64,000 nt of DNA from Oceanospirillaceae bacterium. Lineage in GTDB: Bacteria; Pseudomonadota; Gammaproteobacteria; Pseudomonadales; Oceanobacteraceae. The stretch is from NCBI GenBank assembly GCA_002724925.1, contig PBQA01000024.1, positions 1 to 64,000 of the forward strand, in the 5' to 3' direction. The translations under genes were made by a program, and so were the position numbers. The stretch's first letter is position 1, and every line of letters begins with the position of its first letter. This document shows positions 5,161 through 55,783 of the stretch, one piece after another. Under the pieces are notes generated by a model, which worked only from the letters and a program-made list of their open reading frames with translations, made no database searches and was not told the DNA's origin.

Positions 5161-5211
5161 GAACTTACCATTCAGACCTGACTTTCAGCCGAGACATGGC
5201 TAAACTGAAAG

Positions 5212-5252
5212 ACAGCCGCTATCCTTTAAGGATAACGGCTGTTTTTCTTTTT
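5212..5252 (+). terminator. intrinsic terminator after tig
   Basis: ACAGCCG (5212) pairs with CGGCTGT (5236), and TATCC pairs with GGATA inside it, closing a TTTAA loop. A T-rich run follows. This should end tig transcription before clpP, possibly with some read-through. Confidence 0.9.
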
Positions 5253-5278
5253 ACTCACGTCAGGGAGTGCAGGGTCGA

Positions 5279-5902: not shown

Positions 5903-5998
5903 CGAAATATTCCGCGTTAATTCTCTCCGGCGGCTTGAAATTGCCGTCGGAAGCATCCATCTTTGAATAAACAGTAAGTAAGACGACGAGGCAGTCGA

Positions 5999-9802: not shown

Positions 9803-9808
9803 GGCCGC

Positions 9809-9837
9809 TTGACGCTCTTGGGGGTAGTTGGTATAAA
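9809..9837 (+). promoter_or_regulatory. sigma-70 promoter of hupB
   Basis: TTGACG at 9809-9814 and TATAAA at 9832-9837 are separated by exactly 17 bases. They begin just after the lon stop codon and lie 80-100 bases before hupB, so HU has its own strong promoter independent of lon. Confidence 0.8.
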
Positions 9838-9915
9838 TCAACGCTCTCAAGTTTCTGTAGCGATCATCCAGTCGCACAACAAAACTAAAGATATGGATGC
9901 AATAAGGGGATAAGT

Positions 9916-10188
9916 GTGAACAAGTCTGAATTGATTGATGCTATTGCGGCTTCTGCTGATCTGCCAAAAGCAGCGGCTGGTCGTGCTCTGGATGCCATGA
10001 TTGAGGCAGTGGGCGGTGCTCTGAAAGAAGGTGATCAGGTTGCTCTGGTTGGCTTTGGTACATTCCTGGTTAAAGAGCGTGCCGCTCGTACAGGTCGTAA
10101 TCCGCAGACTGGCGCTCCGATCGAAATCAAAGCGGCTAAAGTACCTGGCTTCAAGCCTGGTAAAGCGCTGAAAGACGCTGTCAACTAA
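9916..10188 (+). CDS. hupB: HU-beta-like nucleoid DNA-binding protein
   Basis: The 90-residue protein starts at a GTG preceded by AAGGGGA and has the bacterial HU fold: an N-terminal helical dimerisation part ([11 protein letters not shown]), the GFGTF turn, and the DNA-binding arm with GRNPQTG and the [16 protein letters not shown] end. It bends and compacts DNA. Position directly after lon is conserved in gammaproteobacteria. The tRNA-Asp gene starts 20 bases after the stop codon without a promoter of its own that I can see, so the two are probably on one transcript ending at the terminator at 10290. Confidence 0.97.
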
Positions 10189-10207
10189 GACACCGTTTTA
10201 AGGGTTA

Positions 10208-10284
10208 GGACCGGTAGTTCAGTTGGTTAGAATACCGGCCTGTCACGCCGGGGGTCGCGGGTTCGAGTCCCGTCCGGTCCGCCA
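10208..10284 (+). tRNA. tRNA-Asp (anticodon GTC)
   Basis: The acceptor GGACCGG pairs with CCGGTCC. The anticodon stem CCGGC/GCCGG encloses CTGTCAC, giving GTC. The T arm GGGTTCGAGTCCC and the encoded CCA are present. It lies 20 bases after hupB and six bases before a strong terminator. Confidence 0.97.
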
Positions 10285-10289
10285 GAATA

Positions 10290-10315
10290 AAGCGCATCCT
10301 AGATGCGCTTTTTTT
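10290..10315 (+). terminator. intrinsic terminator after hupB / tRNA-Asp
   Basis: The perfect stem AAGCGCATC/GATGCGCTT has a three-base CTA loop and is followed by a run of T. Confidence 0.93.
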
Positions 10316-10355
10316 GTGTATAGTGCTGTTGCTGACGATCAGCTCTTATAATTAT

Positions 10356-10410
10356 TAATGCCGCCTGTCGCGGTAGGCACTAAGCCCGGAAGTACCGGGC
10401 ATTAGGGAGG
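10356..10410 (+). promoter_or_regulatory. structured 5' leader of ppiD
   Basis: Several short inverted repeats lie just before the ppiD ribosome site (AGGGAGG, 10404-10410). TAATGCC at 10356 can pair with GGCATTA at 10398; GCCT at 10363 can pair with AGGC at 10375; GCCCGG at 10384 can pair with CCGGGC at 10395. The first and last pairings share bases, so they compete. Whether this matters for expression is unknown. Confidence 0.35.
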
Positions 10411-10414
10411 AAAC

Positions 10415-26876: not shown

Positions 26877-28589
26877 ATGAGCAGCACGCATAAACCGTCT
26901 CAGAACAACAAATCTACAAAAGCCGGTGAAAATTCATCAGGCATGACTCGTCGGGCATTTCTAGGTCGTTCGGCGATGACCGCTGCTGCCACGGCAGGTG
27001 CCACTACCGTGAGCCTTGCAGTAATCAGCCCGAAGGCAGAAGCCGGTTGGTGGGATGTGTTTGAACCTGCTACGCCTCACACTCCCGTCAGTATTGCGCC
27101 ATATTACACGGCAATCACGGTGGGTACGGGGTATGGCTCATCGGTAACCGCATTGCGCCTCGGGGAAGCGGGAATAGATACCCTGATGATTGAAATGGGC
27201 CAGCTTTGGGATCAGTTGGCGTCCGACGGCAAGGTGCATTGCAACATGATCAATGCAGATGCTCGATCTATGTGGTTCAAAGACCGTACAGAAGCACCCG
27301 TCTCGAACATACTCGGTTTGCCATTGGTCGATCGCAATATTGATCGCTATCCGGGGGTTTTAGATACCTTGTCTTACGACAATATGAAGGTGTATCTCGG
27401 GCGCGGTGTAGGCGGCGGTTCTCTCGTCAACGGTGGCATGGCGGTAGTGCCTAAGCGTGCGTTTTTTGAAGAGATACTACCGGATGTTGGCGCTGACGAT
27501 ATGTACGACCGTTGGTACCCGCTGGCGCAGAGTATGCTGCACGTTAATAGTGTCACGGATGAGGTGTACGAATCTGATTACTATCAGTTCAGCCGCATGG
27601 CTGAAACGTGCGCGCACAAAGCCGGGTTCCAGACCTCCGATGTGCCGAACGTCTACGACTTTGATTACATGGCCGAAGAAATCGCCGGCAATGTCGAGCC
27701 CTCCGCGACCGCGAACGAAGTCATCTATGGCAATAATCACGGGAAACAAAGCCTGGATAAAAACTACATTCCGCAAGCTATCGGGACCGGCAATGTCACG
27801 CTGCGTACCATGACACGAGTGGCCTCGATCACCCAGGGTGCGAATGGTGTTTATACGCTCCAACTGGAAACCATTAATGTGGCAGGCGACATTGTCGAAC
27901 GACTCAGCGTGCAGTGTCGGTACCTGTTTTTAGGAGCGGGTACGATGGGCACAACGGAACTTCTGATGCGTGCGAGAGAAACCGGTGCGCTACCCGCACT
28001 CAGCGATGAAATCGGCCAGGGCTGGGGCAATAACGGCAACTTTATGGTGTCGATTGCCAACCCGTTGTGGAAACTTACCGGCGCTAAACAGTCAGGGATG
28101 CCGGTGCGTGGAATAGATAACTGGGATGACCCTGAGGCCCAGGTGTTCGCTGAAATAGCGCCGTTTCCGGCGGGTATCGAGACCTACACAAGTCTGTTTC
28201 TGGCGATTACTAATAACCCTGAACGGGGGTATATGACCTATGATGCAACTGCTGACAACGTAAGGTTGCATTGGGGGCCGGATCAGTCGCAGCCTTCCTT
28301 TGATGCTGCGAAGAAAGTATTCGACCGCTACAACAAAGCGAACTACTGCCACTACCGACGAGGACTGTTCGAGGGCAATCAGCCGTACGCCGACTTCTTT
28401 ACCTATCATCCGCTGGGCGGCTGCCTGCTTGGCAAGGCAACTGACCTTTATGGCCGATTGAAGGGGTACGACAACCTTTATACCGTTGATGGTTCGCTGA
28501 TTCCGGGGAATGTGGGGGTGAATCCATTTCTGACGATTACTGCACTCGCCGAAAGGAATATTCATAAAATCCTGAGAGAAGATTTTTGA
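26877..28589 (+). CDS. GMC-family cholesterol oxidase-like enzyme with Tat signal
   Basis: The 570-residue protein has a Tat signal (TRRAFLGRSAMTAAATAG, twin arginines at 25-26) so it should be exported folded with FAD. The FAD-binding loop is VGTGYGSSV (residues 82-90), and the GRGVGGGSLVNGGMAV segment is the GMC signature. The sequence closely follows actinobacterial type I cholesterol oxidases, including EVIYGNNHGKQSLDK, and the catalytic residues are all present: Glu435 in PAGIETYTS, His511 in YHPLGG and Asn549 in VGVNPF, corresponding to Glu361, His447 and Asn485 of the Streptomyces enzyme. It should oxidise and isomerise 3-beta-hydroxysteroids. No other steroid genes lie nearby, so the natural substrate may be another sterol or hopanoid. 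Confidence 0.87.
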   Translation: MSSTHKPSQNNKSTKAGENSSGMTRRAFLGRSAMTAAATAGATTVSLAVISPKAEAGWWDVFEPATPHTPVSIAPYYTAITVGTGYGSSVTALRLGEAGIDTLMIEMGQLWDQLASDGKVHCNMINADARSMWFKDRTEAPVSNILGLPLVDRNIDRYPGVLDTLSYDNMKVYLGRGVGGGSLVNGGMAVVPKRAFFEEILPDVGADDMYDRWYPLAQSMLHVNSVTDEVYESDYYQFSRMAETCAHKAGFQTSDVPNVYDFDYMAEEIAGNVEPSATANEVIYGNNHGKQSLDKNYIPQAIGTGNVTLRTMTRVASITQGANGVYTLQLETINVAGDIVERLSVQCRYLFLGAGTMGTTELLMRARETGALPALSDEIGQGWGNNGNFMVSIANPLWKLTGAKQSGMPVRGIDNWDDPEAQVFAEIAPFPAGIETYTSLFLAITNNPERGYMTYDATADNVRLHWGPDQSQPSFDAAKKVFDRYNKANYCHYRRGLFEGNQPYADFFTYHPLGGCLLGKATDLYGRLKGYDNLYTVDGSLIPGNVGVNPFLTITALAERNIHKILREDF

Positions 28590-40168: not shown

Positions 40169-41015
40169 ATTACAAGATGCCCCGTTGGCAGGCTTGCAGT
40201 GGAGTGGGAGTGGTGAAGCCTGCAAAGGCGGAGAGAGAGTTCTTTGCCTTCACGGGTGGCTGGATAATGCGGCAAGCTTCTCGTTGCTGGCTGAACGGCT
40301 CACGCAAGGTGCCGACGGTAATACCACGGTCGCGATAGATCTTCCCGGCCACGGAAAGTCTGGTTGGCATTCGCCTGGTCAGGGGTATCCTATATGGGGT
40401 TATACCCACGAGCTGAAAACCGTAATCGATACCATGGCGTCTCCAGTTGATTTGGTGGCTCATTCGTTGGGTGGGTCACTAGCACTGTGCCTTGCCGCTG
40501 CATTCCCTGAAACGGTCCGCTCGATCGCTCTATTGGACGCTCCTGGCCCCATGGTGACACCCGAAAATCAGATCGCATCGCAACTGCGTGACGGTGTGCT
40601 GTCTCGCGATAAGTTGCGTCCCTCACGCCAGTTTTCATCGATAGCAGACGCTGTTGCTGCCAGAAAAAAAGCAACCCCTGAGCTTAGCGAAAGTGCACTG
40701 ACGATATTGGTAGAACGCAATCTGGCTAAGTGCGAATCCCATTTCGAGTGGCGTACCGATCCTCAATTAAAGCTGACTTCTGACCTGCGTCTGAGCGAGA
40801 CCCAGGTAGAGCACCTGATGCGCGCCGTAAAGTGCCCGGTGTTGAGCATTCGGGCAGAAAGCGGCCTTCTGCCACTGAAGTTCTTTGAACATCGAATGGG
40901 ATACCTGCAAAATGTCGACTCGTTGCAATTGCCAGGTCATCACCACTTTCACCTGGAAGAAGAGACTGCTCCGGCCATTGCTGACGCGATATTAACTTTC
41001 TGGAAAGGACTCTGA
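40158..41015 (+). CDS. Alpha/beta-hydrolase fold protein
   Basis: The 285-residue protein begins at a GTG inside the end of the preceding hydrolase gene, with GGGAG upstream. It has the classical fold motifs: LHGWLDNAASF at the oxyanion hole, DLPGHGKSG, the nucleophile elbow AHSLGGSLAL and GHHHFHLEE with the probable catalytic histidine. It resembles the epoxide-hydrolase/esterase branch and is clearly different in sequence from its neighbour, so the pair is not a recent duplication. Three or four genes from here on overlap or nearly touch (stop-start overlap ATGA at 41015). The substrate is unknown. Confidence 0.82.
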   Translation: MAAELQDAPLAGLQWSGSGEACKGGERVLCLHGWLDNAASFSLLAERLTQGADGNTTVAIDLPGHGKSGWHSPGQGYPIWGYTHELKTVIDTMASPVDLVAHSLGGSLALCLAAAFPETVRSIALLDAPGPMVTPENQIASQLRDGVLSRDKLRPSRQFSSIADAVAARKKATPELSESALTILVERNLAKCESHFEWRTDPQLKLTSDLRLSETQVEHLMRAVKCPVLSIRAESGLLPLKFFEHRMGYLQNVDSLQLPGHHHFHLEEETAPAIADAILTFWKGL

Positions 41016-41734
41016 TGAACGCCTCCGTAGTTAAGCAGGCAATCTGGTTTGTTGTACTTATTTCCGCACTGCTTGCCGCGCTTGCGACCGGCTGGATGCT
41101 GCATAAGCCGGCCGATTACGGTTACAGCTTCTGGTACGACCAGATGGACATCCGCGGGCATATCGACAAGTACGGCCCTAAAAACCGCTATATTCGTGGC
41201 TTTGACGATCTTTCGCGGGAGCAGCATCTTGAACTGTTCGGCGGTATCGTTGATGCCGTGCATAACCAGGGCAGAGGGTTAGCAGAGCTTGAATTTACCG
41301 ACAGTCGTGGCCGCACAAAACCATTATTGAGAAAGCCCGAAATTGTTCATCTGCAGGACGTTGCCAACCTGATTGATGTGCTGTCAGTGGCGGGTGCGGT
41401 CAGCCTGTTAATCGCAGCAATCGGTACCTTTATGCTGATACGGCGTCGTATCCCCATTCAATGGAAGCAACAGGGTCTCTTGCTCGGCGGACTTCTGGGG
41501 GCGGTTGCTCTTGTGCTTTTGATTGCTGGCCCGAAAGCCGTCTTTTATCAGCTTCATGTCTGGATCTTCCCGGATGACCATCAATGGTTCTTTTACTATC
41601 AGGAATCGCTGATGAGCACCATGATGAAGGCCCCGGATTTGTTCGGTGGGATAGGGGCGACGATTGGTTTTGTTGGTTTTGGGCTTTATCTGGCGTACCT
41701 GGTGATTTTACATCGCTTTCTGAGGCGAGGTTGA
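41015..41734 (+). CDS. DUF1461-like integral membrane protein
   Basis: The 239-residue protein has membrane helices at about residues 8-28, 125-145, 155-175 and 210-232, with a long periplasmic loop after the first helix. The layout and the HLQDVANLIDVLSVAG and IFPDDHQWFFYYQESLMSTMMKAPDLFGGIG segments look like the DUF1461/TIGR01906 family, where a His-containing loop precedes the second helix. No function is known for the family. The start codon shares bases with the stop of the hydrolase gene, and the next membrane protein follows directly. Confidence 0.68.
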   Translation: MNASVVKQAIWFVVLISALLAALATGWMLHKPADYGYSFWYDQMDIRGHIDKYGPKNRYIRGFDDLSREQHLELFGGIVDAVHNQGRGLAELEFTDSRGRTKPLLRKPEIVHLQDVANLIDVLSVAGAVSLLIAAIGTFMLIRRRIPIQWKQQGLLLGGLLGAVALVLLIAGPKAVFYQLHVWIFPDDHQWFFYYQESLMSTMMKAPDLFGGIGATIGFVGFGLYLAYLVILHRFLRRG

Positions 41735-41735
41735 T

Positions 41736-42185
41736 TTGCGAAAAAAGAGCGTGCTGAGTTTCCTGATACTAGCTCTTATACCCTGCGTGATATTGCTTGT
41801 GTTGCTGGTTGTAGTGAGTTTGGTGTTTGGAGTGGGAGTCGGTGCCGCGTCATGGGCTTATCTTACTGTATTTTCGATCGTCGCAATTCCGACAACCCTC
41901 TTGCCTTCAGTGATAATTACAGGACTTCTGATCTTTGGGGATTTTAATGATCAGGTTGGCAAAGACTCGTTGGGGCTGAAATTGCTATGGTTTATTTGTC
42001 TTGTTGGCTCTCTGCTTCTGACGTATGTCGCCTGTTTCGAATTTGTGCTGGGCAATGAGGACCCCAGTGATGGTGCGCTCATCACAATGACCATCATGCT
42101 CCATATATCGACGAGCCCTGTATGGTTAATATGCAATCTCGCCTGGTATCATTTCTTGCCTGCTTTTACACAAACTAGAGAGTGA
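41736..42185 (+). CDS. Small integral membrane protein, four helices, unknown
   Basis: The 149-residue protein is very hydrophobic with four predicted membrane helices (about residues 8-30, 38-65, 82-105 and 113-140). The only suitable start is a TTG two bases after the previous stop, with GAGG eight bases upstream. I do not recognise the family. Because it directly follows the DUF1461-like gene, the two proteins may form one membrane complex. Downstream begins the disrupted helicase gene. Confidence 0.55.
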   Translation: MRKKSVLSFLILALIPCVILLVLLVVVSLVFGVGVGAASWAYLTVFSIVAIPTTLLPSVIITGLLIFGDFNDQVGKDSLGLKLLWFICLVGSLLLTYVACFEFVLGNEDPSDGALITMTIMLHISTSPVWLICNLAWYHFLPAFTQTRE

Positions 42186-42299
42186 CCAGTGGCGCTTTTG
42201 TCTTAGTCGGGCCAAATGATTCGCGCAGAGTCGGCAGGCCTGATTCTCAGTTTTTGCTATAGTTCGCGGCTCGAATGATTTACTAAAAAAGGAGTTGTG

Positions 42300-42884
42300 G
42301 TGATTTTCGATACGATGCAGTTCAGATTTTCCTGGCGTCCTTATCAGCAGCGTGTGTTGCAAGCAATTGATGATCATCCGGATGACAAACGACTGCATAT
42401 TGTTGCTGCCCCGGGTGCCGGTAAAACCGTCCTGGGTCTGGAAGTGTTCCGGAAATTGCGTCGCCCGACACTGGTGCTTTCGCCCACCCGTATTATCAGG
42501 GATCAGTGGATACGTCGCCTCACGGATTTTGGGGTGGAAGGTGAACCGTTCGATCTTCACTGGATAAGTACTGATCTATCCCGGCCTGCTCTGTTGACGT
42601 CTGCGACTTATCAGGCAGTGCATGTAAAAGCCGTGAGGCAGGGTGCACAGGTTCCACCTGATGATGAGCCTGAACCGCCTGAGACTGACGATCAGTCATC
42701 TATCCCTGATGCTAAGGCGCTACCCCTGATGCTAAGGCGCTACTGGCTGTGATTGCTCAAGGCGGCATAGAGGTTGTCGTTTTGGACGAGGCACACCATC
42801 TTACAGCCGAGTGGTGGAAAGCTTTGAAAGCTGTTGTTACCTCGGTTCCTGAAATCGTTCTCGTGTCACTTACAGCGACAACTG
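42300..42884 (+). pseudogene. DEAD/DEAH-type helicase, N-terminal fragment, frameshifted and truncated
   Basis: The reading frame starts at GTG 42300 behind AAAGGAG and shows SF2 helicase motifs: FSWRPYQQRVL (Q-like region), Walker A VAAPGAGKT and VLSPTRIIRDQW. At 42704-42743 a 20-bp unit is present twice in tandem, which shifts the frame and stops translation at 42752. If one copy is removed, the frame reads on without interruption (IPDAKALLAVIAQGG) into the DEAH box VVVLDEAHHL and the SLTAT motif III. The homology ends abruptly at about 42880-42888, where a truncated recombinase begins on the other strand. The C-terminal part appears to lie at 54647-55101. The gene is therefore dead in two ways. 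Confidence 0.85.
42704..42743. repeat. 20-bp perfect tandem duplication inside the helicase fragment
   Basis: Positions 42704-42723 and 42724-42743 are identical. Since 20 is not a multiple of three, the second copy causes the frameshift in the helicase gene. Perfect identity suggests a recent event or an assembly artefact. Confidence 0.95.
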
Positions 42885-43195
42885 GTCAAGTTGAATCGGT
42901 TTGGCTTGCTTTTGGACGACCGGGTGTAATTCGGCAATACCCTTTAAGACTTTTTTCACATGAGGGGCTTTGGTGGGATCAGGGAAGCCCTGATCAAGAT
43001 GCCAAGCTGCCAAACCGGCTAGTCGTTGACGCAGTGTATTCACGGACAATGTATTGGCATAATCCACCAGATACCTCGCCACACTGTCGGCCGTTGCAGG
43101 AAGAAAGCCACCCCAATGACTTTCAAAATGTTCAATCGCCGCACGGTAACTTAACCGAGTGTTATCGCTCGGATGTAGTGATCTACATCTGTCAT
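42880..43195 (-). pseudogene. Tyrosine recombinase (integrase), N-terminal fragment, frameshifted
   Basis: On the minus strand an ATG at 43195 with AAGGAA upstream starts TDVDHYIRA, after which about ten bases seem to be missing and the frame shifts into NTRLSYRAAIEHFESHWGG, TADSVARYLVDYA and QGFPDPTKAPHVKKVLKGI. These are typical of the N-terminal SAM-like core-binding domain of a family of site-specific integrases. The sequence stops near QAKPIQLDQL, at the helicase junction, so the whole catalytic domain (R-H-R-Y) is lost. It begins three bases after the merR stop codon. It cannot be active and only marks the left end of the island. Confidence 0.82.
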
Positions 43196-43197
43196 GC

Positions 43198-43647
43198 CTA
43201 TTTCCTTGTACCGCTTGGCGAGCGCTCGTTCCTTGTACCGCTTGGCGAGCGCTCGGGTTTTGGTAGTAACTCTCCCAATATCCCGCACTGGTCGACCGAT
43301 CTCGCGTTGCCGCATTTAAGCCGTAGCTGCTTGAGGTCGCCATGAAGCTTTTGTAAGTCCTCGATACGAGACTCTGCAACGAGCAGGTGCGTATCAATCA
43401 TCTCATTTACCGCCTCGCACGGCGTCTCCGGCGAGTTTTGTAACGATACCAGGTGTTTAATTTCGCTTAAGGTCAGGTCCAGCGCACGGCAGTTTTTGAT
43501 GAAAGACAGTTTTTCTAATACCACACTGTTATACAAACGAAAGTTTCCTTCGGTACGCTCAGGCGCCGAAATTAAGCCTTCTTTCTCGTAGTAGCGAATT
43601 GTCTGGATCGAGCATCCACTGCGTTTTGCCAGCTCACCAATTTTCAT
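43198..43647 (-). CDS. MerR-family Pb/Cd-responsive regulator (PbrR/CadR-like)
   Basis: The 149-residue protein has the MerR winged helix (MKIGELAKRSGCSIQTIRYYEKEGL), a long dimerisation helix and metal-binding cysteines Cys77, Cys112 and Cys121. Their spacing (35 and 9) equals that of PbrR (78, 113, 122 as I recall), whereas CadR has a shorter last interval, so lead or a broad Pb/Cd/Zn response is likely. The C-terminus ends in two exact copies of a nine-residue stretch (NERSPSGTR type) encoded by a 27-bp tandem duplication and is abnormal for the family. It is divergent from the HMA-CDF gene, whose promoter it should control by DNA untwisting. Confidence 0.9.
   Translation of the reverse strand: MKIGELAKRSGCSIQTIRYYEKEGLISAPERTEGNFRLYNSVVLEKLSFIKNCRALDLTLSEIKHLVSLQNSPETPCEAVNEMIDTHLLVAESRIEDLQKLHGDLKQLRLKCGNARSVDQCGILGELLPKPERSPSGTRNERSPSGTRK
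43202..43255. repeat. 27-bp perfect tandem duplication at the 3' end of merR
   Basis: Positions 43202-43228 and 43229-43255 are identical. The unit is nine codons long, so the merR frame is kept and its C-terminus has a repeated ERSPSGTR block. This is the second perfect tandem duplication within 500 bases, the first being at 42704. Confidence 0.95.
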
Positions 43648-43665
43648 CTTTCTTTAACCCGCCTC

Positions 43666-43696
43666 TTGACTCTATAGTTACTACAGAGTTTACACT
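43666..43696 (+). promoter_or_regulatory. MerR-type promoter and operator of the HMA-CDF gene
   Basis: TTGACT at 43666-43671 and TACACT at 43691-43696 are separated by 19 bases, the long spacer characteristic of MerR-controlled promoters. The spacer holds a near-perfect dyad, ACTCTATAG (43669-43677) and CTACAGAGT (43681-43689), with one mismatch. The site lies between merR and the divergent transporter gene. Confidence 0.92.
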
Positions 43697-43725
43697 TTCT
43701 ATTAATGTATAAACAAGAGCCAGCT

Positions 43726-44631
43726 ATGACTGAAGACTCGAAGACTTGTGGTTGCAATGCCAGTCAAGACACGTCATTGCAACCTGAATCGCAAGCAGAA
43801 AGTGATGCTCAGGCTGAAATGAGCCACCTGAGCGTATTTGACGTTCCTAAGATGGATTGCCCATCCGAAGAGAACTTGATTCGTACGGCTTTTGCTAGCT
43901 TTGAAGCAACCGTCGTCTTCGAATTCGACTTGCCCGGACGCAAGGTGCATATATATCACCCTAATATGGCGGATAAAGTGGAAAAAGCCATGAAGTCTGT
44001 TGGCCTCGGGGCAAGCTTGGTCTCATTCGAGTCAGTAGATCACAATGCGGTTCAGGCTGCCTTGGAAGTCACAACAATCAATGAAACGCGGGAGGCTCAG
44101 GCATTAAAGTGGCTGCTGGCCATTAATGCCTTCATGTTTGTACTTGAGCTCGGCGTGGGCATTGTGGCGCAATCTACAGGGCTTATCGCCGACTCACTGG
44201 ATATGTTCGCCGATGCGGCGGTCTACGGCGTGTCGCTATATGCAGTGGGCAAGGCGGCCAAGTTTAAACTCAAAGCGGCTCACTTTTCGGGTTGGCTGCA
44301 GATTGCACTTGCTCTGGGTGTTCTATCGGAGGTTGCCAGACGCTTTTTATATGGAAGTGAACCGGTCTCGGTGCTCATGATGAGCTTTGGCGCCGTGGCC
44401 TTGATAGCAAATATTACCTGTCTCTTGTTGATCTTCAAATCGCGAAACCAAGGCTCCCATATGAAAGCGAGCTGGATATTTTCTGCCAATGACGTGTTGG
44501 CCAATGCGGGCGTGATAACAGCGGGAGTTCTAGTGGCGGTGACAGGGTCTCAAATGCCAGATTTGGTCATCGGCCTATTAATAGCAGGCCTGGTTATGTG
44601 GGGGGCGGTTCGCATCTTGCGACTGAATTAA
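43726..44631 (+). CDS. CDF-type cation efflux protein with N-terminal HMA-like domain
   Basis: From ATG 43726 the protein has 301 residues. The N-terminus has a Cys pair (KTCGCNAS), and residues 38-110 form a heavy-metal-associated-like domain with VPKMDCPSEENLIR, which has one cysteine instead of CxxC. The transmembrane part (from about residue 125) has the CDF metal site in IADSLDMFADAAVYGVSLY and a second site near FSANDVLANAGVI. There is no large C-terminal cytosolic domain. It should export Zn, Cd or a related divalent ion from the cytosol to the periplasm, where CzcCBA could take over. It is the direct target of the divergent MerR-type regulator. Confidence 0.85.
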   Translation: MTEDSKTCGCNASQDTSLQPESQAESDAQAEMSHLSVFDVPKMDCPSEENLIRTAFASFEATVVFEFDLPGRKVHIYHPNMADKVEKAMKSVGLGASLVSFESVDHNAVQAALEVTTINETREAQALKWLLAINAFMFVLELGVGIVAQSTGLIADSLDMFADAAVYGVSLYAVGKAAKFKLKAAHFSGWLQIALALGVLSEVARRFLYGSEPVSVLMMSFGAVALIANITCLLLIFKSRNQGSHMKASWIFSANDVLANAGVITAGVLVAVTGSQMPDLVIGLLIAGLVMWGAVRILRLN

Positions 44632-44638
44632 ACGCGAT

Positions 44639-45271
44639 ATGGTCAATACAATCCGACAACTACTCACCAATAAGCCATTGATGCTATTGCTCATCAGTGG
44701 CGTGCTCTGCGCTTGCGTTAGCAACAATCGGCCAAACAATATTACTTCTATTGGTATCGAGGACTTAACTCAAAAAAAGGCAGTGAATGCCATTATTTTT
44801 GACAATTTAAGCCCCGTAGTACAGGAAAAAACAAACAATTTCGATCAAGCGGCCAAAGATATAACCAATGCTTTAAAGGAACAAGCCAAGGCCAATAAAA
44901 TACGCCTAAATAACACAGCCACATATACTGGGGATTGGCTCGATGTTGCCGATCTGCATTTCAATGACGCAGACTATAACTGGACCCTAAGGTTTTGGGA
45001 CTCAAACCTACCTAAGTTAGGATTTCAAAACTTTTCAACAGACATAGATTCCTCCATCGAGGTGCATTTCCGCTATTGCAAGGAACGAACGATACAATTT
45101 GCGAATATTTCGGAATTTCAATTATCGAAAGATCGCGAATATTGGCTAAAACATTTTTACCCTGCAGCGATACACAGCCTGTATTTATTGATGAAAGGCA
45201 ATATAGAACTAGCACCCATTCAAGTAAAAGCTTATGGCGGCAGGTTGGTTAGCGGCACAAAACTTGGTTAG
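44639..45271 (+). CDS. Putative lipoprotein, unknown function
   Basis: The 210-residue protein begins with a lipoprotein signal (MLLLISGVLCAC, lipobox ending at Cys). The mature part is polar, without repeats or known motifs (ATYTGDWLDVADLHFND, WDSNLPKLGFQNFSTD). Base composition is A+T-rich and codon use differs from the backbone, in line with transfer. It starts seven bases after the HMA-CDF stop and is probably in the same MerR-controlled transcript. I do not recognise the family. Envelope location and context suggest a metal-related role, but this is inference. Confidence 0.6.
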   Translation: MVNTIRQLLTNKPLMLLLISGVLCACVSNNRPNNITSIGIEDLTQKKAVNAIIFDNLSPVVQEKTNNFDQAAKDITNALKEQAKANKIRLNNTATYTGDWLDVADLHFNDADYNWTLRFWDSNLPKLGFQNFSTDIDSSIEVHFRYCKERTIQFANISEFQLSKDREYWLKHFYPAAIHSLYLLMKGNIELAPIQVKAYGGRLVSGTKLG

Positions 45272-45342
45272 AGTGAACACTTCATCTTTGTGTTAAATCG
45301 CGAGACAGAAATATTTATTGTTCCCAAGTTAAATGTGAATTC

Positions 45343-45371
45343 TTGACATCCTATTGTGTATGTTTTAATCG
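45343..45371 (+). promoter_or_regulatory. candidate promoter of the czc operon
   Basis: A perfect -35 box TTGACA lies at 45343-45348, and TAATCG at 45366-45371 is a weak -10 box at 17 bases. It lies 20-48 bases before the ATG of the small secreted protein and within an A+T-rich gap. A weak -10 next to a perfect -35 would be in keeping with an activated promoter. Confidence 0.45.
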
Positions 45372-45390
45372 AAATCTAGTGGCAGTCCTG

Positions 45391-45744
45391 ATGGTAAAAC
45401 CCACCCTAATATATTTGATGCTCGTATTGACGGTTTTTCAGTCAAGTATCGCTATGGGGGATGTAGACCAGATAACACAGTCAGGCTCTGATAATTTTTC
45501 AATTAATAATATTCTAATTGGGCTCGGCGAGATTGATCCGCCTGAAACAAATATTGATCCGCTTGAAGAGGAGCACGATTGCAGTCACTGCAGCCTTTGC
45601 CATGGACATGGTTGTCCCGTGATTTTAGTTAAAACGTTGAGTTTTACGTTTCAAAAAGCACGAACAAATGTCCCTGATTATCGTAAACGCATCTCCTCTG
45701 AAGTGCCTAGTCCTCTCTTACGCCCTCCTATCTTACGATCTTAA
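45391..45744 (+). CDS. Small secreted Cys/His-rich protein (CzcI-like position)
   Basis: From ATG 45391 the protein has 117 residues. A signal peptide (LIYLMLVLTVFQSSIA) is followed by an acidic stretch and a dense metal-binding motif, HDCSHCSLCHGHGCPV, with four cysteines and three histidines. In metal-resistance operons a small periplasmic protein (CzcI, CnrX/Y-type) often stands before czcC, and this gene is in the same place; the sequence itself I do not recognise. A longer frame starting with TTG at 45343 is rejected because that TTG is the -35 box. A role as a periplasmic metal buffer or sensor is an inference. Confidence 0.6.
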   Translation: MVKPTLIYLMLVLTVFQSSIAMGDVDQITQSGSDNFSINNILIGLGEIDPPETNIDPLEEEHDCSHCSLCHGHGCPVILVKTLSFTFQKARTNVPDYRKRISSEVPSPLLRPPILRS

Positions 45745-45802
45745 TTAAACAAACTATTCACTCCGCTAACGCGGAATAGATTGACTTAATCAGGATCATT
45801 TT

Positions 45803-47074
45803 ATGCGAATTAACCCACTTAATCGGTGTCGGGCGATTTGCCTGTCAGCTATAGTTTTGGTCGCCGGTATATCCGCGTCTCCTAGCTATGCAAGTACTGA
45901 CCCCGCTCTTACATTAAAAGACGCCATTGCCCAGACGCTAGAACGGAACCCGCAGCTATATCAGTACACCCTCGCTACTGAAATATTTGAAGCTCGAAAG
46001 CAAACCCACTCTTTGCGTCCAGCAATAGAACTCGAACTCGAAGTAGAAAACTTTGCGGGATCCGGCGATACCCAAGGGTTTGACGGTGCAGAAACCACAC
46101 TACAACTCTCATCGGTTATTGAACTAGGGAGCAAGCGCAAGGCGCGTATGTCCCTAGTAGATGCTCGAATCAATAAAAATCATTGGGAACAGCAAGCGGC
46201 CACATTGGATGTCTTGGGTCAACTGACCCAAGTATTTATCGAAGGCTTGTCAACGCAGGCAAATATCGACCTTGCTAACAACTCATTGAATCTGTCGCGA
46301 TCACTGTTCAAGGCCGTACAAACACGAGCCAGGCAAGGCGCGACACCTGAAGCCGAGGTTATGCGTGCGCAGGCTGCCGTCATTCGGGCGGAGCTTCAAT
46401 TAGCGGCGTTGACCTCAAAGCTTCAACGACAAAAAATACTGCTGGCACGTTTTTGGGGCGAGACATCTCCCGAATTTAGTCACCTAAATGGAAATTTATT
46501 CGAATCTGGTAAGAGCGAGAGTTTCGATCAGCTTTATGCGCGCATTAAGACATCGCCTTCTCTTCAGGTATTTGCGAGTGATGCACGAATAAAAGATGCG
46601 GAAGTCACGTTAGCTCGCGCAAGTGGTCGCAGCGATATTACCTGGCGTGCAGGTGTTAGGCGCTTTGAAGATACCGGTGATTCTGCGTTAACCGCTGGCC
46701 TGTCAATGCCGCTGTTTGCATCCAAGCGAAACCGAGGTGAAGTTAAAGCCGCACTCGCTGAACGCAACGCCACTGAGTATGCCAAGCAAGACTCCCTCCT
46801 GCGTTTGCATGCAAAACTCTTCGAAGCTTGGTCTCTACGAAACCAAAACATGGACGCTGTGATGAAGATGGAAGACACGGCCATCCCCGCTCTGGAAAAG
46901 GCATTTCAATTAACCAAAAAAGCGTATGAAAACGGACGATATCGATATCAAGATCTCGTCGCAGCACAGGAAGAGTTACTCGCGACAAAACAAGCCCTTA
47001 TTGATGCCGCCACGAATGTGCAGATAAGCCAGGTACTGATCGAACAGTTAACCGGTGCATCGATCTCTGAATAA
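45803..47074 (+). CDS. czcC: CzcC-like outer-membrane efflux channel (TolC family)
   Basis: The 423-residue protein has a signal peptide (ISASPSYAS) and two outer-membrane-efflux repeats made of long helical hairpins, typical of the CusC/CzcC group. Segments such as LTLKDAIAQTLERNPQL near the mature N-terminus and KKAYENGRYRYQDLVAAQEELL near the C-terminus are characteristic. It would form the trimeric outer-membrane duct of the RND pump. An AGGA ribosome site precedes the ATG. It is first in the czcCBA order. Confidence 0.92.
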   Translation: MRINPLNRCRAICLSAIVLVAGISASPSYASTDPALTLKDAIAQTLERNPQLYQYTLATEIFEARKQTHSLRPAIELELEVENFAGSGDTQGFDGAETTLQLSSVIELGSKRKARMSLVDARINKNHWEQQAATLDVLGQLTQVFIEGLSTQANIDLANNSLNLSRSLFKAVQTRARQGATPEAEVMRAQAAVIRAELQLAALTSKLQRQKILLARFWGETSPEFSHLNGNLFESGKSESFDQLYARIKTSPSLQVFASDARIKDAEVTLARASGRSDITWRAGVRRFEDTGDSALTAGLSMPLFASKRNRGEVKAALAERNATEYAKQDSLLRLHAKLFEAWSLRNQNMDAVMKMEDTAIPALEKAFQLTKKAYENGRYRYQDLVAAQEELLATKQALIDAATNVQISQVLIEQLTGASISE

Positions 47075-47129
47075 ACCGTTTTGAACAATTTAAATGACCC
47101 ATCAATACATGGATCAAACAGGACTAACA

Positions 47130-48023
47130 ATGAATAAATACTTACTCACACTATTTCTATTGCTTGGCGTTTTAGCGCCGATTCAAAGCACCTTGGCGGA
47201 TGACGACGATGATGAATATGAAGAAATCAGTCGAATTAACGACGAGTTATCTACCAAGGTAGGCATTGTTACCGCAAAAGCAACTGCCGGGACAATCAGT
47301 CAAACCGTTACCGTCTATGGGAACGTGACACAAGCGCCTGAGAACAGTCACGAAATTTATGCGCGTTTCCCCGGCATTATCAAATCAGTCAATGTTGTAA
47401 TCGGTGATACCGTTAAAAAAGGGGATCGCATCGCGACCATTGAGTCAAATGAAAGCTTAAAAAGCTATCCAATACACGCTCCGGCATCCGGGGTTATTGT
47501 GCAACGCCACGCGAACCCAGGTGAACCGACACAACAACGGCGGTTATTGACGATTACCAACTTGGATACGGTGTGGATAGAGTTCCGTATTTACCCGGAA
47601 AAGCAGGCAAAAGTGAGCGCGGGACAGCCTGTTTCTATCACCATCAACGATAAGACTATTCGTTCCGATGTAGCCCACCTAATACCGGCTGAAGATAAAC
47701 CATACGTACTTGCGCGCGTCAAGCTTGATAACGATGAATTAAGGCTTTCTCCAGGTCTGCTTGCCAAAGGGAAAATACATACCAATGAATTTGACGTTTC
47801 TTTGGTGGTGACGAAAGACGCCGTACAAGAATTGGGGGAACGATTAGGCGTGTTTGTTAAAGAAGGTGAAGCTTATGAGTTTGCGCCTTTGGTACTAGGG
47901 AAATCCGACGACAATTTCATTGAGGTTGTTTCAGGACTGGAACATGGGGCCGAATATGTTTCAGAAAATAGCTACTTAATCAAAGCGGATATTTTGAAAT
48001 CCGAAGCTGAAGACGACGACTAG
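47130..48023 (+). CDS. czcB: CzcB-like periplasmic adaptor (membrane fusion protein)
   Basis: From ATG 47130 (AGGA upstream) the protein has 297 residues with a signal peptide and a mature N-terminus rich in aspartate (ADDDDDEYEE), perhaps metal-binding. The barrel-sandwich hybrid domain is recognisable by VNVVIGDTVKKGDRIATIES and YPIHAPASGVIVQRHANPGE. The coiled-coil hairpin between them is very short, shorter than in canonical CzcB/CusB. It should link the CzcA pump to the CzcC channel. A frame opening 12 codons earlier (47094) has no signal-peptide logic and is not used. Confidence 0.9.
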   Translation: MNKYLLTLFLLLGVLAPIQSTLADDDDDEYEEISRINDELSTKVGIVTAKATAGTISQTVTVYGNVTQAPENSHEIYARFPGIIKSVNVVIGDTVKKGDRIATIESNESLKSYPIHAPASGVIVQRHANPGEPTQQRRLLTITNLDTVWIEFRIYPEKQAKVSAGQPVSITINDKTIRSDVAHLIPAEDKPYVLARVKLDNDELRLSPGLLAKGKIHTNEFDVSLVVTKDAVQELGERLGVFVKEGEAYEFAPLVLGKSDDNFIEVVSGLEHGAEYVSENSYLIKADILKSEAEDDD

Positions 48024-51149
<3,126 letters not shown>

Positions 51150-51155
51150 TTGTCA

Positions 51156-51177
51156 TACCCCGGCGAAAGCCGGGGTA
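51156..51177. repeat. extragenic palindrome with GAAA tetraloop
   Basis: TACCCCGGC and GCCGGGGTA form a perfect nine-base-pair stem closed by GAAA, seven bases after czcA. There is no T tract. Similar GTCAT-(stem)-GAAA-(stem) sequences are common intergenic repeats in proteobacteria. It may stabilise the czc mRNA 3' end. Confidence 0.75.
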
Positions 51178-51282
51178 GCTAACTCCGGCTGAGTCGTCGT
51201 GGCGATTAGCTGATGTACTAAATTATTTATAATAACAGAGGCCTGAAATTGCCGTCAGCAACTTCAAAGCAAGGGAAATATA

Positions 51283-51879
51283 ATGAAAATACTTTTGAAA
51301 AAAATACCAACTTTATGGATTCAATTTCTGCTTTTTACCATTGTGATGCTGTCAGTATATCCGGTAACTGCTGATGACGAGGTTGCGCTTGGCCGCGTAC
51401 AGGCACCGGTGACTATCATCGAGTACGGCTCGTTAACATGCGACTACTGCATCTATTTTCACAGAGAAGTACTGCCGCACATACAATCACGATATATCGA
51501 TACTGGCCAAGTGCGTTTTATCTATCGTAATTTTCCAACCAGCAATGCGGCAATACGCGGCGCGGTGGCTGCGCGCTGTGCTGGTGACCTATACTATAAG
51601 ATGCTAGATGTGTTGTTCGCGCGAGTAGGAGCTTGGGCCGAGGCGGATGATGTTGACAGAGCGCTGATTCAGCAGGCTGCCGCCCTCAACATAGATGAGG
51701 AAGACTTTTATGCCTGCATCAATGATCCGAGTCAAGACCAAGCTATAATAGCCGTGCAACTGCAAGCCAAAACAGAATTTGATATAATCGGTACGCCCAC
51801 GTTTGTTGTTAATGGCAAGGTCGTACGGGGCAAAAAGACTATTGAGCAAATAGACGCTTTGATCAACAAAGCACTCTAG
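51283..51879 (+). CDS. DsbA-family periplasmic thiol oxidoreductase
   Basis: The 198-residue protein has a signal peptide (hydrophobic stretch of about residues 13-28) and a thioredoxin fold with a helical insertion. The redox motif is CDYC in SLTCDYCIYFH, and the cis-proline is in IIGTPTFVVNG. It belongs to the group of DsbA-like proteins that also includes Com1/BdbD types. A further cysteine pair (ARCAG and YACIN) lies in the helical part. It has its own gap of 130 bases after czcA. Its role in the island may be to protect or form disulfides in Cys-rich envelope proteins under metal stress; this is an inference. Confidence 0.87.
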   Translation: MKILLKKIPTLWIQFLLFTIVMLSVYPVTADDEVALGRVQAPVTIIEYGSLTCDYCIYFHREVLPHIQSRYIDTGQVRFIYRNFPTSNAAIRGAVAARCAGDLYYKMLDVLFARVGAWAEADDVDRALIQQAAALNIDEEDFYACINDPSQDQAIIAVQLQAKTEFDIIGTPTFVVNGKVVRGKKTIEQIDALINKAL

Positions 51880-52094
51880 ACTCTCGCCGGTCAGCCACCA
51901 ATAAATCCGAATAGGGGGCAAAGTTATTCGCGCTTTTTAATACGAACATTTTGGAGGATGAAATGACTTTCGGGTATTGCCGGCAGGCGATCTATTCTCC
52001 AGGACGGCGATGGTTTTGATAATGATCACCGCCGCCTTGTGGAATCAGTGTATTGATCGCCGTTGCGTTTTTGTGATGCTCGTAAATACTTGCT
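51880..52094. other. gap between the DsbA-like gene and the second CDF gene
   Basis: The stretch holds no convincing gene. A GGAGG sequence precedes an 18-codon frame at 51963-52019, without resemblance to anything I know; it may be a leftover of a lost gene. No clear terminator separates the two convergent genes. Confidence 0.4.
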
Positions 52095-52712
52095 TTATTC
52101 GCCATGCTTGTTGCCATGCTCATCATGTTTATCCATGTGAGCATCCCGCAAAATATCGATGCCACCATAGAGTGCAATGCATGCAACAGCGATCCCTACC
52201 AGCAAGTCCGGCAAATTTGAACCTGTCCAGATAACAATGATGCCCGCAAGTATCACGCCGCCATTTGCGACAAAATCATTCATGCTGAAAGTGGTCGCTG
52301 CGCGCAAATTTACATCTTTACTTTGCAATTTCTTCAACAGGTAGAGTGACAGAAGATTCACCACCGCTGCGATGACAGCCATCGTCATCATCATTGCGCC
52401 CGCAGGTTCCGATCCCTCAAAATAGCGACGAATCGCATCTAGCACCACGCCGCCGGCGAAGATTAATAGCATAATCCCGGAAAAACGTGCCGCGCCGCGC
52501 TTCCACGTGCGAGAACGAGATAAGGCAAGCAGACTTAATCCATACACAATAGCGTCGGATGAGTTATCAAGGCCGTTGGCGATAAGCGCGTTGGAGTCAC
52601 CGACAAAACCCGTCGCCAAGAACCCCACCGCGATAGCCACGTTTAGCCAGAGCACAATCCAAAGCGTGCGACGCTTGTCAGCCGAATCGAGATCAAAATT
52701 GGCTTCACTCAT
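52095..52712 (-). CDS. Second CDF-type cation transporter without HMA domain
   Basis: From ATG 52712 (GGAG nine bases upstream) the protein has 205 residues, about six membrane helices and a His-rich tail (DKHDEHGNKHG). The CDF-type segment NALIANGLDNSSDAIVYGLSLLALS aligns with the equivalent segment of the HMA-CDF protein at 43726, and the SMNDFVANGGVILAG segment aligns with its second site, so the two are distant paralogues. The likely role is divalent metal export to the periplasm. The start overlaps the stop of the SpoIIAA-like gene by eight bases, so the two are coupled. Confidence 0.8.
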   Translation of the reverse strand: MSEANFDLDSADKRRTLWIVLWLNVAIAVGFLATGFVGDSNALIANGLDNSSDAIVYGLSLLALSRSRTWKRGAARFSGIMLLIFAGGVVLDAIRRYFEGSEPAGAMMMTMAVIAAVVNLLSLYLLKKLQSKDVNLRAATTFSMNDFVANGGVILAGIIVIWTGSNLPDLLVGIAVACIALYGGIDILRDAHMDKHDEHGNKHGE

Positions 52713-53088
52713 AGGCAATATCTCCATGACCAGCACGCGCCCATAATTCAGCGCTGTCTATTTCATTGGAGTCAAAAAAGCGCATTTCAGCGGAGGGGAA
52801 TAATGGGTCGAAAAGCTTCGTTCCCCATTCCTGCCAGTTCTTGTTACCCACGATAGCAATTCGGCCAAACTTATCCTGGTGTTTCGCATCGAACTTTAAA
52901 TCGCGCCAAAGGCCGCTTAAGTCCCAGCCGGAGAAGTTGGACGCGAGCTCGATGAGCATGGGAACTGAAGCTGATTCCTTGGCCGCTATGCGCTCGAAAA
53001 TCGGCACGAAGCGATCATAATCTGAACCTCCGGGCGTACCTCTGGCTTTAATTCGGACCAGTTCATTTTCTTCTGCTATATCAAGCAT
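52705..53088 (-). CDS. SpoIIAA-like STAS protein
   Basis: The 127-residue soluble protein belongs to the SpoIIAA-like group (PF11964 type), with the pattern FERIAAKESASVPMLIELA, DLSGLWRDLKFDAKH and GRIAIVGNKNWQEWGTKLFDPLFP, followed by the acidic residues of the C-terminus (RFFDSNEIDSAELWAR). Such proteins are often encoded in stress or metal islands; their function is not known, but a lipid- or partner-binding role has been suggested. It is the first gene of a two-gene unit with the CDF transporter. Confidence 0.82.
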   Translation of the reverse strand: MLDIAEENELVRIKARGTPGGSDYDRFVPIFERIAAKESASVPMLIELASNFSGWDLSGLWRDLKFDAKHQDKFGRIAIVGNKNWQEWGTKLFDPLFPSAEMRFFDSNEIDSAELWARAGHGDIAYE

Positions 53089-53169
53089 AACGTTTCCCTC
53101 TAGGCATTTTTAAGTGGCTGTTAGAGCAAGTATTCTGTAGATGTGACTACTCTCGTGACTATGGATTCA

Positions 53170-53385
53170 TTATTGTGCAAGTGGGAGCACCACCAAACCA
53201 ATCGCCAGCCAAGCATAAGCAATGATTGTAAACACCAGCAATATCCAGTCCCCAATACTTCTATCTGCTGACATCGACCCTTCTTTTTTCGAATACCACC
53301 AATATATAAATACGCCCGATAGAGCGATAAACATTACGTTTAAGAAAAAAGAGTAATCTATTTTAAAAAATTCCCGATCGGTCAT
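53170..53385 (-). pseudogene. Small membrane protein or C-terminal fragment of a membrane transporter
   Basis: The frame gives 71 residues with two membrane helices (about 12-32 and 48-68) separated by a polar loop. It starts at the ATG exactly at the junction with the truncated kfrA-like gene (53394), and the frame is also open on the other side of the junction. It could be the 3' end of a larger permease gene whose 5' part was deleted in the same event that removed the start of kfrA. It may instead be a genuine small protein. The sequence alone does not decide. Confidence 0.4.
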
Positions 53386-53393
53386 CGATTTGG

Positions 53394-54305
53394 GACGCAA
53401 TTCGCGTAGAGCTGGGCAATACCGGCTCTAGGTCCACAATCCATCGTTATTTTCGCGAGATCGAAGAAGAGGCGTCAGCTCGATTGGATGATGAGGCTCT
53501 GCTCAGCCAGCCTATAAAAGAGCTTGTCGGACGCCTTGCCTCAGTGCTCCGCCAGGAGGCTCAATCTCTAGTTGAAGAACATCAAACCAAGCATCAAAGC
53601 CAGGTAAGGTCACTTACCGATCGCATTCAAGAACTCGAAAGCTCGCTTGCCAACACAAATAACACTTTAGAAACAAAAGAGCGTGAGCTGAAAGTCGTGC
53701 TCTCCGATCATGATGCCAAAGAAACGTTGAAAGCAAATGCTGCCAAAGCCAATCAAGCCAACGAAAAGCTTCAAGTACTGTTAGCCGAGAAGCAGGCTCA
53801 GATCGAGTCACTGGAAGAAAAGCATCGTCACAACCGCGAAGCGATGGAGCATTACCGGCAATCCGTTAAGGATCAGCGTGAGCAAGATCAACGAAAACAT
53901 GAGCACCAAGTACAGCAATTGCAAGCTGAAATCAGGACTTTAAATCAAACACTTTCTGTTAAGCAGGGTGATATCACGCAGCTGAACAAAGACAACGGAA
54001 GATTGGCAGCTGAGCTTGGCGCCACACAGAAAACGGTTGCAAAGCTGGAAGCCGAGCAGCGCAAACTAATAACAAATTTGGAGTCGAAATCAGCAGAAGT
54101 CGAGTCACTCAAAACCCAACTATCCGAGCTCGAAAAACAATCAGAGGAACTCGATAAGCTTAAAAGGCTGAATGAAGAGCTGCTCGCCTGGAAAGCCCAG
54201 GCGTCTGTATCGATTGGCAAGCTGGAAACGGAAATCTCAATTAAGACAGAAATGATGAATCGTTTACTGGAAGAAAGAAGTAAAACCCCGGAAGCCAGTG
54301 GATGA
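53394..54305 (+). pseudogene. KfrA-type DNA-binding coiled-coil protein, 5'-truncated
   Basis: Reading from 53394 the frame encodes DAIRVELGNTGSRSTIHRYF, the second half of the KfrA N-terminal DNA-binding domain, followed by a very long coiled coil (about residues 40-295, Glu/Lys/Gln-rich heptads). No start codon or ribosome site exists upstream; the frame meets a stop at 53364, and the preceding bases belong to the adjacent membrane-protein fragment. KfrA proteins are autoregulated plasmid or island proteins that help partition or organise DNA. The N-terminus including the first helices is lost, so DNA binding is doubtful. It marks the right end of the island. Confidence 0.82.
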
Positions 54306-54646
54306 CCTGCTGCTCTCAGGCTCAGTAGGGTATTTGCTCTTATCGCTGGCCACCTCAGGCGCTTCGCAGACCCTATTGCTGTTTTCCGACAGAGAGGGCT
54401 CATACCCGGTCGGCTGCGCAATTTTAGCCCAAAGAGCGGTGCAAATCGATAGCAGAAGTCAGCGTTATATCGAATTACGCATACCATGCGTAATTGCGCG
54501 TAATTTCCAAAAAATCGAGTGGCGCCAGGGGTTTGCATTCGAAGTGGCTAAATTTGGGAGTTTTACCGGCCACCTAAAAACTTGTCTCGGATATTTTCAA
54601 TAAAAACAGTAGGTTAGGCCAGCTTTGGTGAATTTTCCAGGATGAC
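54306..54646. other. non-coding right end of the island
   Basis: These 341 bases lie between the kfrA-like stop and the helicase C-terminal fragment. A plus-strand frame exists (54298-54603) but has no family resemblance and no ribosome site. The clear feature is the palindromic site at 54473-54505. The A+T content rises toward the right border. Confidence 0.55.
54473..54505. repeat. palindromic site, candidate recombinase core or KfrA operator
   Basis: AATTACGC at 54473-54480 and GCGTAATT at 54488-54495 are exact inverted copies separated by the seven bases ATACCAT, whose AT/AT ends extend the dyad to ten bases. A third copy, GCGTAATT, follows in direct orientation at 54498-54505. Inverted arms around a six-to-eight-base crossover region are the layout of tyrosine-recombinase core sites. 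A site for the KfrA-like protein is the alternative. Confidence 0.5.
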
Positions 54647-55101
54647 GGCCGACCCTCTCTCTGGGACAAATTGGTGAAGCGGTTGCCTCAAGTCTCGCAG
54701 AGGCTGGATACATCGAAACCCCAAGGAAACAGCTATTTGTAGAGCGAATAAAGCACGCAGATGGAACCTACTTTGTTGGAATGTTAGGTGGTACCTTTTA
54801 TGAATCGTCTATGTTTTCTGATGCTTTAGCTGAGGTCGTCAGCCCAATTGATTCACCAAGGTACTTGATCAGACGAAAGGGTAGTTATGGCCGCTCTGAC
54901 TTTCATGCAGTACCGCTGAAGCTGGCCTTGAATAAAAGTAATGCTGAGGCCTTTCATCGAAACTGGGAGCGGTATGTCGGGCCGGCAGAGTTAATCTATA
55001 CCCGAAACGCAGAGGGACGAAATGTCCTGGCGAAATCACGCCTTAAAGCGTTTTCATCGGCGTTTGCGCGGGAGGTTCGCCGGGAGGATCAGTGGCTTTG
55101 A
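54647..55101 (+). pseudogene. Helicase C-terminal fragment, severed from its N-terminus
   Basis: From 54647 the frame reads RPTLSLGQIGEAVASSLAEAGYIE and continues to SPRYLIRRKGSYG, FHAVPLKLALNKSNAEAFHRNWERYVGPAELIYTR and ends at 55101. A stop codon lies directly before it and no start is appropriate. From memory, this resembles the C-terminal region of large DEAD/DEAH-box helicase proteins of the type whose N-terminus is at 42300. The central part with the second RecA domain is absent from the window. Downstream is normal backbone (rluA, convergent). Confidence 0.65.
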
Positions 55102-55114
55102 CTGCTGACTCTGT

Positions 55115-55783
55115 TTAAAAGCCGGGCTCCAATTTGAACTCCATGCGCTCCCCCGTTGCTGGGTGACCAAAATCCAGCTCTTTCGCGTGCAAGCAAAGTC
55201 TTGGTTCTGACTCCGCAGCATCGCCTGCGTAAAGCGTATCGCCAACAATCGGGTGTCCGATCTGCTGCATATGCAGGCGTAACTGATGCGAACGACCGGT
55301 CTTCGGAAACAGCGCGACGCGGGTATTACCGTTCTCCACAGAGAGTTTTTGCCAGCGTGTCAGTGCATAACGGCCGTCCGTGTGGCTGATCATCTGGCGT
55401 GGACGATTTGGCCAGTCGACGATGATGGGTAGGTTGATGCACCCCTGATTGCCGGATACTTCTCCCATCACGACCGCTTCGTAGACTTTGCGCGTGGTCT
55501 GGGCTTCAAACTGGCGCTGGACGGTATTCAGCGCTTTTTTGTCGCGGGCAAACACCAGAATGCCAGAGGTGTCCTGATCCAGCCGGTGAATCACCAGAAT
55601 CTCGCCATAGCGTTCCTCGAGTCGACTGACGCAGGAGTCCTTCAGGTACCGCCCCGGCACGCTTAGCAGGCCGGCAGGCTTGTTGACGACGATGATGTCG
55701 TCGTCGATATAGAGCGGCGGGATCAGGCCGTCGTTCGGTATGTGGCGGGTATCCCGCCGTGAGGTGTGCCGACCCTCAGTCAT
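55115..55783 (-). CDS. rluA: RluA-family pseudouridine synthase
   Basis: The 222-residue protein lacks an S4 domain and consists only of the catalytic domain, like E. coli RluA (219). The catalytic aspartate is in HRLDQDTSGILVFA, and KPAGLLSVPGR and the FPKTGRSHQLRLHMQQIGHPIVGD segment are typical. RluA modifies U746 of 23S rRNA and U32 of several tRNAs. It overlaps the end of the upstream yegQ/trhP gene by four bases (ATGA), so the two tRNA/rRNA modification genes are co-translated. The C-terminal end is close to the helicase fragment, which runs in the opposite direction. Confidence 0.92.
   Translation of the reverse strand: MTEGRHTSRRDTRHIPNDGLIPPLYIDDDIIVVNKPAGLLSVPGRYLKDSCVSRLEERYGEILVIHRLDQDTSGILVFARDKKALNTVQRQFEAQTTRKVYEAVVMGEVSGNQGCINLPIIVDWPNRPRQMISHTDGRYALTRWQKLSVENGNTRVALFPKTGRSHQLRLHMQQIGHPIVGDTLYAGDAAESEPRLCLHAKELDFGHPATGERMEFKLEPGF

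Follow-up and report, generated by a model that had tools for sequence, protein, structure and literature searches.

Tn4651 of the plasmid pWW0 is the prototype of the TnpS/TnpT resolution system, in which a TnpS-type recombinase and its DNA-binding partner TnpT are encoded by divergent genes; on pWW0 the two genes, which are recorded as a site-specific integrase and a DNA-binding protein and which we take to be tnpS and tnpT, lie about 180 bp apart. The available sections of PMC7157771 describe the usual arrangement as a divergent tnpS/tnpT pair with the rst site between them, and place TnXax1 in the Tn4651 subgroup. Variable passengers, czcCBA among them, are found between tnpS and tnpT in TnXocp1 and its relatives, according to the parts of PMC4619425 consulted here. 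In this report we describe a related locus in a 64,000-nucleotide stretch of DNA (the window) from an Oceanospirillaceae bacterium, where metal-efflux genes split an accessory helicase gene; this insert is what remains of a Tn3-family transposon belonging to the TnpS/TnpT (Tn4651-like) type.

The window lies on contig C18 of a genome (G000) of 3.97 Mb that is 99.96% complete. An intact helicase of 893 amino acids is encoded in a Thalassolituus genome (G008, L006:1712-4393), flanked by the same neighbouring genes as in the window, and the two window pieces match it in order: the left piece, whose protein homology spans 42300-42883, corresponds to residues 2-146 (E 4.7e-75) and 135-189 (E 4.9e-22), and the right piece, with homology from 54658, to residues 747-893 (E 6.0e-81). 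At the nucleotide level window 42194-42879 aligns with L006 4496-3831 and window 54658 onward with L006 2155 downward, both at 81-82% identity. This collinearity confirms that both pieces belong to one helicase gene, for which chance is not a sensible explanation. An earlier, sequence-only reading of the window had proposed a left fragment stopping at about 42884 and a right fragment of the same helicase type starting at about 54647, and had expected one intact homologue to cover both in order and a related genome to hold the unbroken gene at an empty site; the Thalassolituus gene bears this out.

The translated left piece carries the motifs listed in that reading, which we take to be Walker A, DEAH and SLTAT-type motifs. 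Its reading frame is broken at a 20-bp tandem duplication, the second copy of which is 95% identical to the first; this break had gone unmentioned, and it recurs identically in a second species (G004) considered below. Between the two pieces, helicase residues ~190-746 (1675 bp) are missing, and a search of the whole genome gave no second match to them (E 1e-20). The missing part includes a hydrophobic stretch, seen by eye, and a weak Helicase_C match (residues 497-554, E 0.025) that represents the second RecA domain, so the loss of that domain, also proposed earlier, stands. Three of the nine genomes of the genus have the C-terminal helicase piece: in G008 the gene is intact, and in G000 and G004 it is broken in the same way. 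For the rest, tblastn of the corresponding loci of the other six (L017-L022, L022 being a 4-kb contig end) gave no helicase. The remains of the helicase and of the transposon are arranged as follows.

42297-42879, plus strand: 5′ fragment of the accessory SF2 helicase (residues ~1-189 of 893), frame broken at the 20-bp duplication
42700-42739, no strand: 20-bp tandem duplication, site of the helicase frameshift
42879/42880, no strand: left junction, a deletion scar at which the helicase meets truncated tnpS
42880-43195, minus strand: tnpS remnant, the N-terminal third of a tyrosine recombinase, with 97-98% protein identity to the TnpS of G287 and of one G246 element
53394-54305, plus strand: tnpT remnant, a KfrA_N-type helper of TnpS whose first 26 residues and upstream rst-like site are lost
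54606-54657, minus strand: right terminal inverted repeat region, its outermost 25 bp the same as both ends of a G246 element
54658-55101, plus strand: 3′ fragment of the same helicase (residues 747-893)

The insert itself occupies 42880-54657 (11,778 bp), in agreement with the 11.8 kb first proposed, and its right edge is that of a transposon. Homology to elements of G246 and G232 stops exactly at window 54657, which is the outer end of the inverted repeat, and the outermost 25 bp there are identical to both ends of a complete G246 element. This complete element (L080) is 17,142 bp long, with 35-bp perfect inverted repeats and AAGAA/AAGAA flanks; another, in G287 (L108), is 14,306 bp long, with both inverted repeats, TATAT/TATAT flanks and the gene order tnpT-czcA-czcB-czcC-CDF-MerR-tnpS-tnpA, its czc cargo being ordered as in the window. 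The TnpA proteins of both elements are Tn3 DDE transposases (PF01526), and the tnpT product of L080 is a KfrA_N protein; these complete relatives belong to families other than that of the window genome.

The earlier description of an integrase/KfrA-bounded set of metal genes was correct in seeing a mobile metal island, but the "integrase" and "KfrA" are the tnpS and tnpT of the transposon, and the true end is the repeat at 54657. The minus-strand "integrase" is an N-terminal stub of a TnpS-type recombinase, with a short frameshifting deletion near its start and its C-terminal catalytic part lost; by comparison with the G027 locus, the first 50-55 residues of its open frame are regulator DNA in another frame. 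The stub matches 339 plasmid records, none of which covers more than 80% of the query, and for most of the 30 matches listed the annotation reads "site-specific integrase". For the "KfrA" protein the matches are TnpT-like proteins, and tnpT together with the right end shows 92.8% nucleotide identity to the complete G246 element. A second type of G246 element, present at two places, has a broken tnpA, with no repeat found except the right one; in the copy used for comparison, nucleotide identity to window 42873-51124, tnpS stub included, is 96.0%, and the TnpS protein shares 98% identity with the stub.

The two remnants in the window are divergent with the cargo in between. When arrangements were typed by setting 51 of 57 tnpT rows against 57 of 78 tnpS rows, 33 of the 51 had a divergent tnpS within 1.5 kb, nine had tnpS farther away (the window and G004 among them) and nine were unpaired. 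A rst-like conserved stretch adjoining tnpT is common to L060, L023, L025, L080 and L084, and has no match in window 42-55.2 kb. The idea that the cargo is an excisable cassette between two rst copies was rejected, as the rst-like stretch was found on the tnpT side only. Plasmid searches gave no match for window 42800-54800 and, with the complete G287 element, four records only, each covering 2% of the query (czcA). A Moraxella osloensis plasmid has the order DNA-binding protein, mer operon, merR, site-specific integrase and Tn3 transposase; inverted-repeat searches in that locus gave nothing convincing, the tnpA-side end being recognized by eye.

Among described elements, TnXocp1 resembles the locus in being a Tn3-family element with linked tnpA and tnpS, cargo between tnpS and tnpT, and 5-bp direct repeats, so far as the consulted parts of PMC4619425 go; the window copy differs in being truncated and in another host group. 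The inverted repeats compared in that source begin with GGGG, except for the GAGG of TnXax1, and the window repeat begins with GAGGG. TnXax1 is named in the annotation of plasmid matches to the G287 TnpA (55.9% pairwise identity, among the 30 matches listed), but its cargo is unlike that of the window. Tn4651 of pWW0 shares the divergent pair of a TnpS-type recombinase and a DNA-binding TnpT partner, although in the window the cargo separates the two genes. The Halomonas plasmid pZM3H1 bears a truncated Tn4651-like element that has likewise lost its transposase end and kept metal genes with tnpS/tnpT; it differs in its mer and czcD cargo and its plasmid location, and the available part of PMC3606827 reports no helicase insertion.

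At the left edge, 42879/42880, helicase and tnpS are cut alike. Measured against the G287 element, the transposon lacks 4025 bp there, which with the 1675 bp of helicase makes about 5.7 kb, and a second break, at 53393/53394, has removed the tnpT start and the rst-like site. The window copy retains the right inverted repeat only and lacks the Tn3 DDE transposase (PF01526), and the genome has no near relative of the TnpA of the complete elements (best 31% identity). With its left inverted repeat lost, the locus is filed as a relic of the Tn3 family and not as a working member. A classic transposase-made adjacent deletion retains the inverted repeat, so the left deletion was of another kind.

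We consider it very probable that transposon insertion, later deletions that left the cargo fixed in place, and subsequent transfer by recombination best explain the locus. A Tn3-family TnpS/TnpT transposon with a CadR-CDF-czcCBA cargo would have entered the accessory helicase of a Thalassolituus lineage between codons 746 and 747, a point indicated by the exact right terminus and by the target duplications of relatives. A single deletion of about 5.7 kb from helicase codon ~190 into tnpS, the simplest path from the left scar, would later have taken the helicase middle, the left inverted repeat, tnpA and most of tnpS; a further loss would have removed the tnpT start and the rst-like site; and the broken locus, by then a relic hardly mobile by itself, would have passed between two species through recombination in flanking DNA. 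The right transposon end is clean, whereas on the left the deletion took the end of the transposon itself; the best reading is therefore one of two separate steps, and the proposal that integration was linked to deletion should be revised accordingly. The linked alternative is a one-step replacement of 1675 bp by 11.8 kb through illegitimate recombination. In its favour, insertion and deletion occur together here, and a one-sided illegitimate join seems to have taken place in G004 at the same locus; the right edge, however, falls on exactly the base at which the transposon terminus lies at other sites, which would be accidental on such a route, and we judge it very improbable.

One precise and one ragged end are the signature of one-ended transposition, and the insert has one of each. 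An already truncated transposon might then have moved by use of its right repeat and ended at a variable point on the left, the loss of helicase being separate, but the ragged end should in that case lie beside the right insertion point, whereas the left junction is actually 1675 bp away in the helicase, so that a deletion is still required; we give this course only the slimmest chance. The integrase and KfrA remnants towards the two ends could also suggest a tyrosine-integrase genomic island at an att site in the helicase. Both are, however, resolution genes of a Tn3-family element that in complete relatives has a DDE transposase, inverted repeats and 5-bp duplications, and a search for att-type direct repeats in the 240-bp borders gave none at the edges, the longest exact repeat being 9 bp and off both edges, which makes such an island scarcely credible.

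Several observations weigh against insertion followed by deletion, or complicate it. The 5-bp target duplication has lost its left copy, so that insertion at the exact site is not provable by duplication, and no genome was found with the full-length transposon still inside the helicase. A complete-looking relative in G325 has both repeats but differing flanks (TTCTT and AAAAG). The nearest relative of the tnpS and cargo is one G246 element (96%) and that of the tnpT and right end another (92.8%), from which it follows that the ancestral transposon was already a mosaic; none of the five stretches compared matched window 51214-53393. How many deletions there were, and in what order, is likewise read from the scars.

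The cargo between the tnpS and tnpT remnants consists of the following genes.

43198-43647, minus strand: CadR/PbrR-type MerR-family regulator
43705-44631, plus strand: cation diffusion facilitator (CDF) transporter
44639-45271, plus strand: hypothetical cargo protein
45343-45744, plus strand: hypothetical small cargo protein
45803-47074, plus strand: CzcC-like outer membrane protein of an RND efflux system
47094-48023, plus strand: CzcB-like periplasmic adaptor
48033-51149, plus strand: CzcA/CusA-family RND heavy-metal efflux pump
51283-51879, plus strand: DsbA-like thioredoxin-fold protein
52095-52736, minus strand: second CDF transporter
52705-53088, minus strand: SpoIIAA-like protein

Each of the ten cargo frames that were examined remains open, and the immobilized locus therefore probably still functions in metal efflux as a chromosomal island. 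The 3′ end of the regulator has a 27-bp tandem duplication (window 43202-43255) that the G027 and G246 copies lack. In G027, of another genus of the family, window 43183-51213 recurs at 97.3% identity, and in the 16 kb covered there neither tnpA nor tnpT nor the TnpS core found a match. Related metal cargo stands without helicase flanks in G027, G246, G287, G325 and G150, the stretches compared giving no helicase match; this shows that the cargo is mobile. The sequence-only reading had named such an occurrence as evidence against it, and what it removes is an obligatory link between cargo and helicase, the insertion itself being untouched.

The same broken locus is present in G004, a second species, with shared junctions lying inside a near-identical tract of about 15 kb. 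In an identity profile of the two genomes (500-bp steps, alignments of at least 200 bp), window 40501-55500 has a median identity to G004 of 99.8% (27 steps, 21 of them at or above 99%, the lowest 93.4%), against a median of 84.4% outside it (94 steps, 76 of them at 70-90%, extremes 66.4 and 98.4%). The picture is blurred by a fall to 93-97% at 48501-50500, within czcA, which suggests a second recombination with another czc copy, and by identities of 91-98% at window 1-6500 and 9501-10500, around tRNA genes. Window 41669-42409 is missing from G004 at the left join; in its place G004 has a different small gene together with a 185-bp stretch of diverged rlu end, nearest to G001 (88% over 163 bp) and 79% identical to the window copy of the neighbouring rlu. 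Beyond this the G004 helicase resumes at 42410, and the two sequences have about 5 bp in common at the join. This arrangement suggests G004 as the recipient, with a native allele that had no helicase.

Given the near-identical tract in a neighbourhood of about 84% identity, we infer that the immobile relic crossed between species by recent recombination, the route and direction being read from the joins. We favour, with some reservation, the view that such a relic still spreads because recombination in flanking chromosomal DNA carries the scarred locus; in G004 the right-hand join to a native allele without helicase would have relied on homology and the left-hand one, apparently, on microhomology of a few bases. 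Homology-facilitated illegitimate recombination is a route already described. Two further differences were seen: at L005:3308-4162 G004 has an IS3-like transposase frame (named by eye) in place of window 53317-53912, and window 27001-28500 is unmatched in those parts of G004 and G001 that were compared.

The helicase, whose first domain resembles XPB/Rad25, is rare in the order, being found in four of 293 genomes (E 1e-20), of which two have it broken by the metal island and one (G213) has an in-frame stop. Seven helicase loci are present in the genome collection; apart from that of G008 they are 35-42% identical to it, one coming from Verrucomicrobia and the other five from genera of Bacillaceae type. 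The suggestion that it was a defence-type gene is weakly supported: PADLOC gave only partial, low-score matches to the helicase (PbeA and others), with no full-length match to a defence model. Scans of 10 neighbours of the six relatives met no repeated defence neighbourhood, with one strong match (PDC-S03), one lesser match (mad1, 44 bits), one neighbour with hits of about 20 bits or less and seven with no hits.

The locus leaves knowledge of Tn3-family elements unchanged, being ordinary genome evolution and what is left of a transposon of known kind; a cargo placed between tnpS and tnpT was rejected as a new architecture, since czcCBA in that position is already published for TnXocp1 in the part of PMC4619425 consulted. 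It is nevertheless a well-resolved case, in which the intact gene, complete transposon relatives, the scar and the later transfer are all visible, and it illustrates how a metal-resistance transposon may become a fixed chromosomal island at the expense of an accessory gene, and how an island so fixed may still cross species lines.

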